Source: Aliikangiella marina (GTDB lineage: Bacteria; Pseudomonadota; Gammaproteobacteria; Enterobacterales; Kangiellaceae). From it: a stretch of 64,000 bases of DNA. Positions 21,623 through 27,907 of this stretch are shown piece by piece (position 1 is the stretch's first letter; each line of letters begins with the position of its first letter). Both the position numbers and the translations under genes were made by a program. The stretch spans positions 992,001-1,056,000 of the forward strand of contig NZ_VIKR01000002.1 in the NCBI RefSeq assembly GCF_007004765.1, read 5' to 3'. The notes below the pieces were generated by a model that searched no databases, was not told the DNA's origin, and worked only from the letters and a program-made list of their open reading frames with translations.

Positions 21623-22669
21623 TTGGCAAGTCGCGACTACACAGTTGCGCAGATTGCGCAGCTGTTAGATGCTCAGTATGTCGGTGATGGAGAGCATATC
21701 ATTAGCGGATTAGCGCCAATTGATAAGGCTAGCTCTCAAGATATTTCTTTTCTGAGTGACAACAAGTATCAATCACAATTAAGCACAACCCAAGCGGGTT
21801 GTGTTTTGGTTTCTGATGCCGTTAAATCGCAGTTAAAAACTAACGGCATTATAATCCAGGACCCTTATTTAGGTTTTGCGCGAGTGGCTCAATTGTTAGA
21901 CACAACGCCCAAGCCTCCTCAAGAAATTCACCCCAGTGCCATCGTCCATGAAAGTGCCTCTATTGGTGAAAATGTGGCGATAGAGCCTGGCGTAGTTATT
22001 GGTGAAGGTGTTCAAATTGGCGATAACGTTATAATCGGTGCGAATACCACAATTGGTGAATCGGCAAAAATCGGTGCGAACTCTCGTCTTTATGCTAATG
22101 TTTCTATATATCATCGGGTTGTATTAGGTGAAAATTGCGTGATTCAATCCGGTGCTATCATCGGCGCTGATGGGTTCGGTTACGCTAACGAGCAAGGTCA
22201 GTGGGTTCGAATACCGCAAACAGGCAGCGTTATTCTGGGTAATGAAGTTGATGTTGGTGCCAATGCCTGTATCGATAGAGGAGCGTTAAACGATACGATT
22301 ATCGGTAATGGTGTCAAGATTGATAACTTATGTCACATTGCCCACAATGTTGTCATCGGTGAGCATACGGCTATGGCGGGCATGACCGGAATTGCGGGTA
22401 GTACAACAATCGGCAAGCACTGTACGTTTAGTGGTAGATCGTCAATACTAGGGCATTTATTTATTGCCGATAAGACACATGTAACAGCGTGTAGTTTGAT
22501 TAATCGCTCTAATAAAGAACCCGGTGTTTTTTCATCCGGTACCGGCATGCAAGATAACAAAACGTGGCGTAAGAATGTGGCACGTTTTAGACAGTTAGAT
22601 GAGATGGCGAAACAGCTAAAACGGTTACAAAAGCAAATCGACGATATTAAAGGCGGAGCAAATTCATGA
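21623..22669 (+). CDS. lpxD: UDP-3-O-acylglucosamine N-acyltransferase, TTG start
   Basis: The 348-residue LpxD adds the second hydroxyacyl chain to the sugar in lipid A synthesis (third step). An N-terminal uridine-binding domain (about 1-100) precedes a left-handed beta helix of hexapeptide repeats (about 100-310) and a C-terminal helix. The catalytic-His region [15 protein letters not shown] is clear. The start is a TTG, 4 bases after the skp stop, with CAGG about 8 bases upstream; no ATG or GTG nearby fits the family. The stop overlaps the fabZ ATG. Confidence 0.96.
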
Positions 22670-23133
22670 GTGGAGAACAGCGGCAGATTTCGTCACTTGA
22701 TATTCATGAAATAATGAAGACACTGCCCCATAGGTATCCTTTTTTATTAGTTGATAAGGTTACAGATTACAAAGTTGGTGAGTATCTTAATGCGATAAAA
22801 AATGTCACGATGAACGAGCCATGTTTTACCGGACATTTTCCCCACCGGCCAGTGATGCCAGGTGTTTTGATATTAGAAGCATTGGCGCAAGCGACAGGAA
22901 TTTTAGCGTTTAAAACTTTAGACGAATCACCGGATGAAGACTCTTTATATTACTTTGTTGGCATCGACAGCGCGCGTTTTAAGAAGCCTGTTGAGCCAGG
23001 CGATCAAGTAGAGCTAAAAGTAACTTTACTGAATCGCAAAAGAACTTTTTGGAAATTCGACGCGCAAGCACTTGTAGATGGAAAGATCGTGTGTGCTGCG
23101 CAACTCATGTGTTCAAAACAGGATGTCGGATAA
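22666..23133 (+). CDS. fabZ: 3-hydroxyacyl-ACP dehydratase FabZ
   Basis: The 155-residue hot-dog-fold dehydratase converts 3-hydroxyacyl-ACP to trans-2-enoyl-ACP. It competes with LpxA and LpxD for the hydroxyacyl pool. [12 protein letters not shown], the catalytic H57 in [11 protein letters not shown] and E71 in LILEALAQ are present. It overlaps lpxD by 4 bases and lpxA by 1 base, so the three are coupled. Confidence 0.97.
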
Positions 23134-23909
23134 TGATTCATCCCAGTGCCGTGATACACCCATCAGCAAAGCTGGCCGAAGACGTATCGGTTGGACCGTT
23201 TTCGGTAATTGATGAACACGTTACCATCGGTGAAGGTACCGTAGTGGGTCCACATGTTGTCATCAATGGTCATACAACCATCGGTAAGAAAAATCACTTT
23301 TATCAATTCTCCTCGATTGGTGAAGCTAATCAAGATAAAAAGTATGCCGGAGAACCAACCCGAACCGAGATAGGCGACAATAATATTGTTCGCGAATCCT
23401 GCACGATTCATCGAGGTACAACCCAAGATAAAGGGGTTACCAAAATCGGCAATAATAATTTATTGATGGCATATACTCATATTGCTCATGATTGTGTACT
23501 TGGTGATAACGTTACTATTGCTAACAGCTCAAATTTGGCGGGTCATGTGGTCATCGGTGACTGGGCCATTCTTGGCGGGTTTGCCGGCGTTCATCAATTC
23601 TGTCATATTGGCGCCCATGCCTTTATTGGTCTTCGCTCGACGGTAACCCAAGATATAGCGCCTTTTGTTCTTTATGCTGACTCTGCACCGAGAGCGGTTA
23701 ATGCCGAAGGGTTACGACGGCGTGGGTTTACTGGCAAAGATATAAGCGCAATTCGAAAAGCATATCGAGTGATATATCGAAGCGGGATGCTTTTAGAGGA
23801 AGTGATGAAAGAGCTTGAAGTTATGGCGAATGAGTCAGAACATGTTAAGTTAATGATCGACTTTGTCAATCAATCGAAACGGGGTCTCGCTCGAGGCTCT
23901 ATGATTTAA
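23133..23909 (+). CDS. lpxA: UDP-N-acetylglucosamine acyltransferase (canonical copy)
   Basis: The 258-residue LpxA transfers a hydroxyacyl chain from ACP to O-3 of UDP-GlcNAc. It is a hexapeptide beta helix followed by a helical tail. The active-site features of the E. coli enzyme are kept: the NQDKKYAGEPT block (E. coli N72, Q73, K76), the general-base His (H119 here, in HIAHDC), LAGHV and VHQFC. At the chain-length ruler position (E. coli G173) there is Leu, which suggests acyl chains shorter than C14. The ATG overlaps the fabZ stop. A second, divergent LpxA follows after 19 bases. Confidence 0.95.
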   Translation: MIHPSAVIHPSAKLAEDVSVGPFSVIDEHVTIGEGTVVGPHVVINGHTTIGKKNHFYQFSSIGEANQDKKYAGEPTRTEIGDNNIVRESCTIHRGTTQDKGVTKIGNNNLLMAYTHIAHDCVLGDNVTIANSSNLAGHVVIGDWAILGGFAGVHQFCHIGAHAFIGLRSTVTQDIAPFVLYADSAPRAVNAEGLRRRGFTGKDISAIRKAYRVIYRSGMLLEEVMKELEVMANESEHVKLMIDFVNQSKRGLARGSMI

Positions 23910-23928
23910 ATAATAAGATTAGAAATTT

Positions 23929-24696
23929 ATGATCCACGCTACCGCAATCGTCGATCCGTCGGCGAAGATTGCTGATTCCGCTGAAATTGGGCCCTATTCT
24001 GTCATAGGTCCGGATGTCGTTATAGGTGAACGCACGATTGTGGGGCCGCATGTCGTGATTAAAGGGCCAACAGTGATTGGCGAAGATAACGAAATTCACC
24101 AGTTCGCGTCTATTGGAGACATCCCACAAGATTTAAGTTTTGATAAATCTTCAGATACTAAACTTGTTATCGGTGATAGAAATAGTATTCGAGAGTATGT
24201 GAGTATCCATCGAGCGATCCCCAAAGAGGACTACATTACAAAAATTGGTGACGATAATATGCTAATGGCGCATGTCCATATTGGGCATAACTGTATTTTA
24301 GGTAATAAGATCGTGATTGTGAACAGCACCAATTTAGCGGGACATGTACACATTAATGATTGGGCAATTATTAGTGGTTTCAGTGGCATACATCAGTTTT
24401 GTCATGTGGGTGCGCACACAATGCTTGGCATTCAAAGTAAGGTGACTCAAGATATTCCGCCGTTTGTCATGTATGCGGAGTCTTCGCCTAAGACAATAAA
24501 TGCACGGGGTTTGCAGCGGCGTGGATTTGATAAACAAGAAATCCAAAATATAAGAAGAGCTTTCAAAGTTATTTATCGTCAGGAACTTGGGCAAGCGGAA
24601 ATGTTAGCTAAACTTGACGAAATGGCTAAAACTTCAGAGTCGGTTAAATTAATGGCTGATTTTATTCGCAACTCACCCCGCGGAATTGCCCGTTAA
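23929..24696 (+). CDS. Second LpxA-type acyltransferase, probably for UDP-GlcNAc3N
   Basis: The 255-residue paralogue has the same fold, and keeps the general-base His (H120, in HIGHNC), LAGHV and IHQFC. It has lost the block that matches E. coli NQDLKYAGEPT: here it reads PQDLSFDKSSDT (from residue 66), so the Lys equivalent to K76 is Ser70 and AGEPT is gone. The ruler position is Ile. Genes for a GnnA/GnnB-like pair lie just beyond it. In Acidithiobacillus and Leptospira such LpxA enzymes prefer UDP-GlcNAc3N and form an amide bond. That role is inferred from context. It converges on lpxB with 4 bases between stop codons. Confidence 0.85.
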   Translation: MIHATAIVDPSAKIADSAEIGPYSVIGPDVVIGERTIVGPHVVIKGPTVIGEDNEIHQFASIGDIPQDLSFDKSSDTKLVIGDRNSIREYVSIHRAIPKEDYITKIGDDNMLMAHVHIGHNCILGNKIVIVNSTNLAGHVHINDWAIISGFSGIHQFCHVGAHTMLGIQSKVTQDIPPFVMYAESSPKTINARGLQRRGFDKQEIQNIRRAFKVIYRQELGQAEMLAKLDEMAKTSESVKLMADFIRNSPRGIAR

Positions 24697-24700
24697 ACGA

Positions 24701-25849
24701 TTAACGATTGTTTGATGCCAACATATTTGCGGCTAAGCTTGCGACATTTTTCGAGCCGCCTTCAGCGCCAAGTTTTGCTCTGACCTCGGATAACTGATTG
24801 ATCATATCGTTGCGGTAAGCTTCATCATCAAGAATCCGCATAATTTCTTGACCAATTTGTTTTGGTTGAGCTTTATCTTGGATAAACTCATTAATGATTC
24901 TTTTTTCCGCAACAATGTTAACTAAACCAACATTTTCTACCGATATCATTCGCTTGAATATGGCATAGGAAATTGGTGATATGCGATAGGTAATTGTAAA
25001 AGGAATTCCCATCAAGCCAATTTCGAGAGTTGCCGTACCTGATGCCGTGATAATCGCATCGCAAGTACTCATGATGTTGTAGGGTCTATCTTGAATAAAC
25101 TGAATATTGAGGGCCTCGTAACCCACGCATTGCGATTTCAACTCATTGATGTCAAGAGTGCTCGCAACGCCGAGGACAAATTGCAGGTCGTTGCGTTGTT
25201 CGGTTAGATATTTTGCCGTCTTCAGTTGGATCGGTAGTACTTTTTTTATTTCACTGCGTCGACTTCCAGGGAATAGTCCAATCGTCTTTTTATCGCTCGA
25301 AAGTTGATACTCCCTAAGTAGCTCTGGTTTGTCTTTGGTTGGGTAAACTTCGTCGACGAGCGGATTACCGACAAACTTTACTGGGACATTAGCATTCTCG
25401 TAAAAAGCCACTTCGAAAGGAAACAATACTGCCATCATGTCAACGCGTTCGCGAATCTTATGAACGCGTTTTGGACGCCATGCCCATACTTGCGGTCCAA
25501 TATAAAACAAAACTTTAACACCAGACTCCTTGGCTACCTGAGCGAGTTTCATATTAAACTCCTGATAATCAACAAGTATCAGCAAATCGGGCTTTTGGGT
25601 TCGCACAATATCCGCTAAATGATCGAGTGCTTTTTTTATTTTGCGATAATTAATAAGTACTTCTACCAATCCGACGACGGCCAGCTCGGCGCAGTCGATG
25701 ATGACATCAGCACCGGCTTCTCTCAGGTTATCGCCACCCATAGCAGTAATGTTTAAGTCGGAATTAATTTTTTTTAATTCTCTGACTAAATTGGCAGCAT
25801 GAAGATCGCCGGATGCTTCACCGGCACTAATTAAAACTGATTGAGTCAT
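24701..25849 (-). CDS. lpxB: Lipid-A-disaccharide synthase
   Basis: The 382-residue GT19 glycosyltransferase joins UDP-2,3-diacyl-glucosamine and lipid X into the lipid A disaccharide on the inner membrane. SAGEASGDLHAANLV at the start, the YIGPQVWAWRPKR block, LFPGSRRSEIKK and ASGTATLEIGL are diagnostic. The ATG at 25849 is preferred; a GTG two codons upstream is possible, and neither has a strong ribosome site. Its strand is opposite to lpxA, unlike the common lpxD-fabZ-lpxA-lpxB order. It follows the aminotransferase by 18 bases and is probably the last gene of a gnnA-gnnB-lpxB operon. Confidence 0.96.
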   Translation of the reverse strand: MTQSVLISAGEASGDLHAANLVRELKKINSDLNITAMGGDNLREAGADVIIDCAELAVVGLVEVLINYRKIKKALDHLADIVRTQKPDLLILVDYQEFNMKLAQVAKESGVKVLFYIGPQVWAWRPKRVHKIRERVDMMAVLFPFEVAFYENANVPVKFVGNPLVDEVYPTKDKPELLREYQLSSDKKTIGLFPGSRRSEIKKVLPIQLKTAKYLTEQRNDLQFVLGVASTLDINELKSQCVGYEALNIQFIQDRPYNIMSTCDAIITASGTATLEIGLMGIPFTITYRISPISYAIFKRMISVENVGLVNIVAEKRIINEFIQDKAQPKQIGQEIMRILDDEAYRNDMINQLSEVRAKLGAEGGSKNVASLAANMLASNNR

Positions 25850-25867
25850 GGACACAGGTTAGTTTTG

Positions 25868-26965
25868 TTATTGTATTGCGGATTTGATAACGTCACATAC
25901 GATTTTAATTTTTTCTTCTTCCATTTCTGGATAAATCGGTAACGCGAAACAATGGTCCACTACCTTTTCGGAAACCGGTAAGTGATTATCAGTATTTTGG
26001 TTTGCATAAACGTCTTGGCGATGCAACGGGATAGGATAATAAATAGCACAAGCGATATTATTATCTTGTAAAGTCTGCATGATTTTATCTCGCTGATGAT
26101 GCATACAAACATATTGGTGATAAACATGCTTGCCTACACCATCTTCATGTGGTGTAACGATTGCAGAATCGGCTAAATATTTTTTATAAGTTTGGTCGAC
26201 TCTACGACGATTATCATTGTAGCTATCAATGCGCTTGAGTTTGGCTCTTAAGATAACCGCTTGAAGTTCGTCTAATCGGCTATTAAATCCCAATTCAGTA
26301 TGATGATAGCGAACGCTCATCCCGTGGTTTCTAAGTATGTTTAAATGTTTGAAGATGTCATCCGAGTTAGTCGAGATTAAACCACCATCGCCATAGCAGC
26401 CTAAGTTTTTACTGGGAAAGAAACTAAATGCGCCAACGTCACCAAAACTTCCGGTTTGTTGTCCATTAATATCGGCGCCAAAAGACTGAGCACAGTCTTC
26501 AACGATCTTCAGACCTTTCGCGTCGCATAACTTTTTAAGAGCCAACATGTCGACCGGTTGACCAAACAGATGGACAGGAATAACCGCTTTTGTTTTGTCG
26601 GTAATGGCATCTTCCACTTGTTGCAAATCAATATTAAAATTTTGTTCGTCAATATCAACAAAGACCGGAGTAGCACCGACATAACTAATCGCTTCTGCGG
26701 TTGCTATAAAGGTGAAAGTGGTTGTGATAACTTCATCGCCTTTGCCAACGCCAGCCGCAATCAGCGCTAAGTGTAAAGCGTCAGTACCAGAGTTAACCCC
26801 AAGGCAGTGTTTTACACCCAAATACTTTGCAGCTTCCTCTTCAAAGGCTTTTACGTTTGGGCCAAGGATAAACTGGGTAGACTCTAGTGCGGCCAATATC
26901 CCTGAATCAATCTCATCTTTCATTTCAAGATACTGTTGTTTCAAGTCAACCATTGGGATATTCAT
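25868..26965 (-). CDS. gnnB: DegT/DnrJ/EryC1-type sugar aminotransferase, probable GnnB
   Basis: The 365-residue PLP enzyme has the family's IPMVDLKQQY start, GVNSGTDALHLAL, the EDCAQSFGA motif with D157 and the Schiff-base lysine K186 in FFPSKNLGCYGDGG. Family members transaminate keto-sugar nucleotides. Its neighbours are an NAD-dependent sugar-nucleotide oxidoreductase, lpxB and a divergent lpxA. That is the setting of gnnB in A. ferrooxidans, where GnnB turns UDP-3-keto-GlcNAc into UDP-GlcNAc3N with glutamate. An O-antigen or capsule sugar role is the alternative, but no glycosyltransferases or Wzx/Wzy genes are near. Confidence 0.8.
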   Translation of the reverse strand: MNIPMVDLKQQYLEMKDEIDSGILAALESTQFILGPNVKAFEEEAAKYLGVKHCLGVNSGTDALHLALIAAGVGKGDEVITTTFTFIATAEAISYVGATPVFVDIDEQNFNIDLQQVEDAITDKTKAVIPVHLFGQPVDMLALKKLCDAKGLKIVEDCAQSFGADINGQQTGSFGDVGAFSFFPSKNLGCYGDGGLISTNSDDIFKHLNILRNHGMSVRYHHTELGFNSRLDELQAVILRAKLKRIDSYNDNRRRVDQTYKKYLADSAIVTPHEDGVGKHVYHQYVCMHHQRDKIMQTLQDNNIACAIYYPIPLHRQDVYANQNTDNHLPVSEKVVDHCFALPIYPEMEEEKIKIVCDVIKSAIQ

Positions 26966-26971
26966 AAATAA

Positions 26972-27907
26972 CTACTCACTTAAAAGTTTTGAAATTTGGA
27001 TAGCAGTGTCAAGTGCTTGTCGGCCGTCTTCACCGGTAACAACGGCTGGAGTTTTGGTTTCAATGCTATTGAGAAACGCTTTTATTTCTTCCATCAATGC
27101 ATCATTGTTTTCGAAACTTTGTTCGTCTGCAATGATATGTGGCATGCCGTTTTCATCCAAGCCTTCGCCTTTTTGGTAGATGTATAAACCTCGGTTTTGG
27201 AAGTCAACCGTTGCGCAAGATTCATTTTGAAATATTCGCATTTTTCGTTCTGTTTTCACCGAGACTCGACTGGCCGTTACATTTGCAACACATCCATTAG
27301 CGAATTCTAGTCTGGCGTTAACGATATCCGAAGTCTCGGTCAAAACTGATGCACCAGAGGCACGAATTGCTGTGAGTTCTGATTTAACTATATTGAGAAT
27401 AATATCGATATCATGAATCATCAAATCGAGCACAACGTTAACATCATTTGCTCGCGGATTGAACGGTGCTAAACGATGCGATTCAATAAAACGAGGTTCA
27501 GTGATGGCGCGGTCTAGTTTTAAGATCGCTGCATTGAATCTTTCTAAAAAGCCGACTTGAATAATCGCTTCGTTTTGTTTGGCTAGTTCGATCAACTCAT
27601 CGGCTTCCTCAACGGTCACGGTAATTGGTTTTTCGATCAATACATGAGTACCGTGCTCAAGAAAATCTTTGGCAATTTTGTAATGTAGGCTGGTGGGGGC
27701 TGCAATACTGACCGCATCAACATTACCAAGCAGACTTGAATAATCAGTGAGACCGTGCACAGAAAGTGTATCAGCGATTTCTTTTGCGGTTTCTGGGTTG
27801 GCGTCGACTACAGCAATAAGCTCGCTGTTATCGAGAGCTGCATATTTTTGCGCGTGAAATTTTCCAAGATAACCCACACCAATAACGGCGGTTTTAATTT
27901 TAGCCAT
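26972..27907 (-). CDS. gnnA: Gfo/Idh/MocA-type sugar-nucleotide oxidoreductase, probable GnnA
   Basis: The 311-residue protein starts with a Rossmann fold (GVGYLG at 10-15). It has the EKP motif (92-94) and the DLMIHDIDI block with H165 that positions substrate in Gfo/Idh/MocA dehydrogenases. GnnA oxidises C-3 of UDP-GlcNAc with NAD before GnnB aminates it. The ATG at 27907 is chosen because the Rossmann strand begins right after it; the frame extends 20 codons further upstream with no family match. It is first in an apparent gnnA-gnnB-lpxB operon (6- and 18-base gaps). Confidence 0.8.
   Translation of the reverse strand: MAKIKTAVIGVGYLGKFHAQKYAALDNSELIAVVDANPETAKEIADTLSVHGLTDYSSLLGNVDAVSIAAPTSLHYKIAKDFLEHGTHVLIEKPITVTVEEADELIELAKQNEAIIQVGFLERFNAAILKLDRAITEPRFIESHRLAPFNPRANDVNVVLDLMIHDIDIILNIVKSELTAIRASGASVLTETSDIVNARLEFANGCVANVTASRVSVKTERKMRIFQNESCATVDFQNRGLYIYQKGEGLDENGMPHIIADEQSFENNDALMEEIKAFLNSIETKTPAVVTGEDGRQALDTAIQISKLLSE

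Follow-up and report, generated by a model that had tools for sequence, protein, structure and literature searches.

GnnA and GnnB constitute a described route to UDP-GlcNAc3N, the 3-amino analogue of uridine diphosphate-N-acetylglucosamine (UDP-GlcNAc) (PMC5644692; PMC8036547). In Capnocytophaga canimorsus, gnnA and gnnB are accompanied by two acyltransferase genes, lpxA and lpxA', and a diaminoglucose-glucosamine (GlcN3N-GlcN) backbone was established by mass spectrometry and nuclear magnetic resonance; the authors proposed the use of two LpxA (PMC3342949). The pathway itself is known already from other bacteria, and the idea of a hybrid lipid A made with two LpxA is not new, because C. canimorsus provides the precedent. 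Here we describe a locus of Aliikangiella marina, contained in a stretch of 64,000 nucleotides (contig NZ_VIKR01000002.1, positions 992,001 to 1,056,000 of the forward strand; hereafter the window), in which two adjacent genes, lpxA1 and lpxA2, face a block of lpxB, gnnB and gnnA. With a probability of about 0.7, we read it as providing GnnA and GnnB together with an N-acylating LpxA2 and an O-acylating LpxA1, and hence a mixed or hybrid GlcN3N/GlcN lipid A.

The locus resembles that of C. canimorsus in joining two LpxA to GnnA and GnnB, a combination which the paper links to the hybrid backbone; it differs in that the accessible portion of the paper describes no lpxB-gnnB-gnnA block, and in that the lipid A chemistry is known there, but only genes are known here (PMC3342949). 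Likewise, the GnnA and GnnB of Acidithiobacillus ferrooxidans belong to the same two families and the same route to UDP-GlcNAc3N (cited in PMC8036547 and PMC5644692), although those enzymes have been characterized and ours are known from sequence alone. New in A. marina are the layout, the replacement of lpxB, an LpxD-like residue in LpxA2, and gain and loss within one genus; searches of one open-licence library turned up no description of this arrangement, which is no proof of its absence. A cell holding both UDP-GlcNAc and UDP-GlcNAc3N must choose the sugar that enters lipid A. As the two LpxA encoded in this single genome are unlike next to the catalytic base, they allow the preference of LpxA for O- or N-acylation to be tested directly.

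Genes of the convergent lpx locus

The original prediction, made from this DNA, had described two adjacent LpxA genes facing lpxB, an aminotransferase and a Gfo/Idh/MocA oxidoreductase, and intact gene calls and family matches confirmed this arrangement (LpxA residues in E. coli numbering):

lpxD, 21623..22669, plus strand: NCBIfam match; motif HIAHN at the catalytic His
fabZ, 22666..23133, plus strand: named by its place, with homologues at the same place in relatives
lpxA1, 23133..23909, plus strand: NCBIfam LpxA equivalog, 363 bits; K76, Q104, D126, E200
lpxA2, 23929..24696, plus strand: NCBIfam LpxA equivalog, 332 bits; S76, K104, G124, N126, R200
lpxB, 24701..25855, minus strand: passes TIGR00215; of the foreign-block type, at the place of the native lpxB
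gnnB, 25868..26965, minus strand: DegT/DnrJ/EryC1 sugar-nucleotide aminotransferase, PF01041 420 bits
gnnA, 26972..27907, minus strand: Gfo/Idh/MocA oxidoreductase, PF01408 114.6 bits; ATG at 27907

The four plus-strand genes lpxD-fabZ-lpxA1-lpxA2 converge on gnnA-gnnB-lpxB, after which rnhB and dnaE follow on the plus strand. The fabZ stop codon overlaps the ATG of lpxA1, the stop codons of lpxA2 and lpxB lie 4 bases apart, and the gaps are 6 bases between gnnA and gnnB and 12 bases between gnnB and lpxB. The arrangement goes beyond chance, because the block recurs in two congeneric genomes and related blocks occur in other genera. Promoter-like sites were at background (14, versus a shuffle mean of 14.3), and terminator-like sites numbered 7 where 5.1 were expected (standard deviation 2.1).

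Both LpxA exceed the equivalog cut-off of 226 bits, carry the LpxA C-terminal domain, keep the catalytic His125 and the pocket histidines, and are 53% identical to each other. A PF13720 scan of the whole genome returned two LpxA, lpxD is its sole PF04613 match, and gnnA and gnnB have one match each at the cut-offs used. The window's genome combines gnnA, gnnB and two lpxA, the gene set expected for a hybrid GlcN3N/GlcN lipid A.

GnnA had its best Protein Data Bank (PDB) match in 7bvj (242.7 bits, E 5e-71; runner-up only 86.8 bits), presumably the A. ferrooxidans GnnA. Its top NCBIfam hit was a UDP-GlcNAc 3-dehydrogenase model, with 219.5 bits and well below the cut-off of 450, and its EKP motif (E92, K93, P94) was invariant in 12/12 aligned sequences. 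For GnnB, strong PDB matches included 7b0d, QdtB (E 3e-94) and WbpE (E 2e-90), and no listed chain bore the name GnnB; since WbpE and QdtB are among its relatives, its substrate assignment rests on its partner and its place. The gnnA/gnnB pair sits side by side in this locus, as it does in other named ones. The earlier naming of the two genes as gnnA and gnnB is supported by synteny, co-occurrence, trees and residues, and the same four lines of evidence fit the predicted presence of diaminoglucose in lipid A.

Co-occurrence of a second LpxA with gnnA

We surveyed the window's genome and 60 relatives (61 genomes); the genus is represented by seven genomes, the window's and G001 to G006. At E 1e-30, gnnA was found in three of the 61, namely the window's genome, G001 and G003. 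The same trio had two LpxA matches at E 1e-40 (56 genomes had one and two had none) and gnnB at 77-100% identity, with aminotransferases of at most 43% identity present in 12 others. No second LpxA without gnnA was found among the 61 genomes. G005 has the block lpxB, inverted as in the carriers; gnnA, gnnB and a second LpxA were not found in its genome, and its locus holds no recognizable remnant of them.

The association extended to a phylum sample of 398 genomes, in which two LpxA occurred in 4 of the 48 genomes with gnnA versus 6 of the 350 without a gnnA hit (Fisher p 0.02; kinship uncorrected). Among Gammaproteobacteria with LpxA, counted by hand from the matches listed, two copies were present in 3/4 gnnA genomes, one of them the window's own, versus 6/132 others (p 0.0008, likewise uncorrected for kinship). 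We also compiled named gnnA loci (the best 80 of at least 588); in 44 named gnnA genomes picked by hand from these 80 loci, LpxA matches at E 1e-30 numbered two in 21, one in 22 and none in one. Separate copies are laid out in various ways: in an Ectothiorhodospiraceae metagenome-assembled genome (L134), lpxA-gnnA-gnnB forms a block apart from lpxA-lpxB, and G335 carries one further lpxA in addition to lpxA-gnnA. The second copies of Methylococcaceae are very divergent, some without the His144 place, and may therefore not function as LpxA.

Some LpxA-like proteins from gnnA genomes (L231, L240, L243, L245; L161, L164, L169) have F or E at the His144 place, and their activity or substrate may differ. 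Two dissimilar LpxA also occur in genomes without a gnnA hit (L252/L253 in G302 and L254/L255 in G375), one copy of each pair having Thr at E200, and an lpxA duplication in Geobacter sulfurreducens is mentioned in PMC3087551.

Residues of LpxA2 and the case for mixed lipid A

We compared ten gnn-linked LpxA (hand-picked after the motifs had been seen, with L112, L123 and L129 left out), nine partner copies and 73 LpxA of genomes in which gnnA gave no hit, a set that includes 40 of the 350 such genomes of the phylum sample, drawn from the strongest matches listed. Q104 and E200, which are each conserved in 85% or more of the gnnA-free sequences, were the two top columns of 258: both were lost in 10/10 linked copies and kept in 8/9 and 9/9 partners respectively. 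When L112, L123 and L129 were added, Q104 was lost in 13/13 linked copies and E200 in 10/13. The column next to K76 was lost in 10/10 linked copies and kept in 8/9 partners, but its conservation among the gnnA-free sequences is just 62%. Of the 48 gnnA genomes of the phylum sample, 20 with a single LpxA were compared, and all 20 lack both Q104 and E200; these form related groups, however, and two gnnA-free genomes close to them among the matches listed share the E200 change.

The most telling single position is the one that follows the catalytic His125: of 183 LpxA rows, 180 have Asp there, and the other three, which have Asn, are the LpxA2 sequences. At the same position LpxD, whose acceptor is an amine, has Asn in 79/86 and Asp in 7/86 sequences, the window's own LpxD having Asn. 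Since the histidine should have to activate an amine less than it does a hydroxyl, N126 would fit N-acylation on chemical grounds; it is not required for that function, since other gnn-linked LpxA keep Asp126. Leptospira interrogans LpxA (3HSQ) is said, from work of Robins in 2009, to be an LpxA for UDP-GlcNAc3N. Like LpxA2 of the window, it departs at the K76 and E200 places, where Table 1 of PMC7072397 gives Gly71 and Val195. In Pseudomonas aeruginosa LpxA, the residue corresponding to E200 is Glu196, located at the uracil, and that corresponding to K76 is Lys72, located at the 6-hydroxyl of the sugar (PMC7072397).

The data establish the gene identities, their synteny and co-occurrence, the foreign lpxB, the residue pattern and the joint absence of gnnA, gnnB and lpxA2 in G005. 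From these we infer what each enzyme does, which lipid A results and how the two LpxA share the work. GnnA would oxidize the 3-hydroxyl of UDP-GlcNAc, and GnnB would transaminate the product to UDP-GlcNAc3N. LpxA2, a separate diverged copy probably tuned to the amine substrate, would then put a 3-hydroxyacyl chain on the new 3-amine in amide linkage, while LpxA1 would keep acylating the 3-hydroxyl of plain UDP-GlcNAc to an ester. The presumed LpxC, the single LpxD and the block LpxB may then process both products to a mixed or hybrid GlcN3N/GlcN lipid A, and the extra genes of the cluster would be expected to replace some ester bonds of lipid A by tougher amide bonds. The earlier expectation of an all-amide or mixed lipid A would narrow to the mixed form, because LpxA1 keeps the usual residues.

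Several observations weigh against this division of labour. E. coli LpxA accepts UDP-GlcNAc3N too, and LpxA1 therefore need not be strictly O-specific. In L112, L123 and L129, the LpxA copy in the cluster is the one that keeps E200. In the named gnnA genomes, E200 is kept in 9 of the 22 with a single LpxA, and 20 two-copy pairs comprise 9 split between E and non-E and 11 with E200 in neither copy; Q104 and E200 are both absent from 5/67 LpxA of genomes without a gnnA hit. K76 proved inconsistent as a marker and was rejected, LpxA2 of G001 having kept it. Finally, Table 1 of PMC7072397 lists Ile for Bacteroides fragilis LpxA at the position of E200, and the text of that paper names Phe72, not Gly71, for L. 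interrogans.

In a rival reading, GnnA and GnnB act as proposed but both LpxA take both sugars, the second copy serving dosage or chain-length variety and the product being a random mix of esters and amides. This reading, which draws on the tolerance of the E. coli enzyme and on the gnnA genomes with a single LpxA match, nine of them with E200, appears unlikely to us: the two copies have different residues in the substrate pocket and next to the catalytic His, and no second LpxA was found without gnnA in the 61 genomes. Chain-length specialization of LpxA2 is not favoured by the ruler residue either (E. coli 173): in G001 and G003 both LpxA have I there, and the two LpxA of the window have L and I. 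LpxA2 could also be a decaying or non-catalytic copy, as its long stem (0.75 changes per column) and the loss of the otherwise near-invariant D126 might indicate. We find this scarcely credible, given that the places of His122, His125, His144, His160, N198, R204 and R205 are unchanged in LpxA2 of all three species, that the frames are open and 73-74% identical between species, and that N126 is common to all three.

The diamino sugar could, alternatively, be destined for O-antigen or another glycan by WbpB/WbpE-like enzymes, its place in the lpx cluster being incidental; the aminotransferase sequence alone, which matches WbpE and QdtB as well, fits this too. It is nevertheless very improbable, as the pair forms an operon with lpxB, several genera have gnnA within their lpx clusters, GnnA matches 28 PDB sequences at E 1e-10 without any of them carrying the name WbpB or WlbA, and gnnA and gnnB are absent jointly with lpxA2 in G005.

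Displacement of lpxB and probable movement of the block

The block LpxB of the window is about 67-70% identical to LpxB of G001 and G003 and about 63-64% to that of G005. Apart from these, 54 genomes gave an LpxB match, always at 37% or less; identity to the native LpxB of the sister species G002, G004 and G006 is 31-32%. In G002 and G004, the native lpxA and lpxB are co-oriented; in G006, native LpxA and LpxB lie on two contigs. With a foreign LpxB in the carriers and a native one in their sisters, native lpxB has been displaced in the carriers. The genus offers a natural series, from G002, G004 and G006 with native lpxB and no gnn genes, through G005 with nothing of the module but the block lpxB, to the window's genome, G001 and G003, in which the module is complete.

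The reversal of lpxB noted in the original prediction is real, but we rejected it as a peculiarity of this locus: lpxA faces lpxB and gnnA in 9/80 named gnnA loci, 8 of the 9 with gnnB recognized (lpxA, gnnA and lpxB are on one strand in 17/80). The layout recurs among such blocks, and in the window it marks the displacement of native lpxB. A close counterpart, in Simiduia aestuariiviva (L105), likewise shows a pair of lpxA genes opposite lpxB-gnnB-gnnA, with rnhB and dnaE next to them and identities to the window of 67% (GnnA), 67% (GnnB) and 58% (LpxB). It differs in having approximately 3 kb between lpxB and lpxA, and in its gnn-side LpxA, which retains D126 and is probably not the sister of LpxA2. 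In larger quick trees, the block GnnA, GnnB and LpxB adjoin S. aestuariiviva (Shimodaira-Hasegawa-like approximate likelihood ratio test 98, 99 and 98; 51 rows for LpxB), while a careful LpxB tree of 10 rows leaves this link undecided. The best reading is that the lpxB-gnnB-gnnA part probably arrived by horizontal transfer and replaced the native lpxB. An origin of LpxA2 from a Simiduia-like donor block was rejected, since approximately unbiased (AU) tests, which are weak because they used a 61-row quick tree with a long branch, rejected a clade of LpxA2 with the Simiduia gnn-side LpxA (p 0.005) and did not reject one with LpxA of its own family (p 0.35).

Trees of neighbouring genes suggested movement within the genus. 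In a tree of seven flanking proteins the window falls with G002 and G006 (100/99), in one of PpiD, 17 kb off, it falls with G002 (100/99), and G001 groups with G005 in both (100/100); LpxA1 taken alone places the window with G001, G003 and G005 (100/99). The window's LpxD is nearest to G002 and G006 (70 and 69%, versus 59-62% elsewhere in the comparison), and its RnhB to G001, G003 and G005 (84%, versus 77% for G006), both single-gene trees being poorly supported. We read this as movement of the lpxA1-gnnA segment between species by recombination; old presence followed by losses may be an alternative history. Because G001 and G003 both carry the whole module, loss of the gnn genes and lpxA2 in G005 is the simplest reading, and this is a single event. 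LpxB of G005 groups with that of G001 in the larger tree (92), its position being undecided in the 10-row tree. Among the four congeners, the G005 lpxB (L187, 8462-9646) has the longest branch, as if re-adapting.

More tentatively, and at somewhat less than even odds, LpxA2 may have become specialized for the amine through the LpxD-like His-Asn pair (N126), with LpxA1 unchanged, and may form with the imported lpxB-gnnB-gnnA a module that recombines between species of the genus and is lost as a unit, switching lipid A between ester and mixed amide forms.

Among the 80 named loci, 27 have gnnA and lpxB without a recognized gnnB (L108, L126, L132, L137, L138, L141, L146, L157-L159, L162, L166, L167, L170-L182, L184), some of them ending at contig ends. 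The aminotransferase may be encoded elsewhere in these genomes, or the oxidoreductase may have another role there. One of these gnnA-lpxB loci, L176, comes from a record titled as a Klebsiella pneumoniae metagenome-assembled genome, a name that may be wrong.

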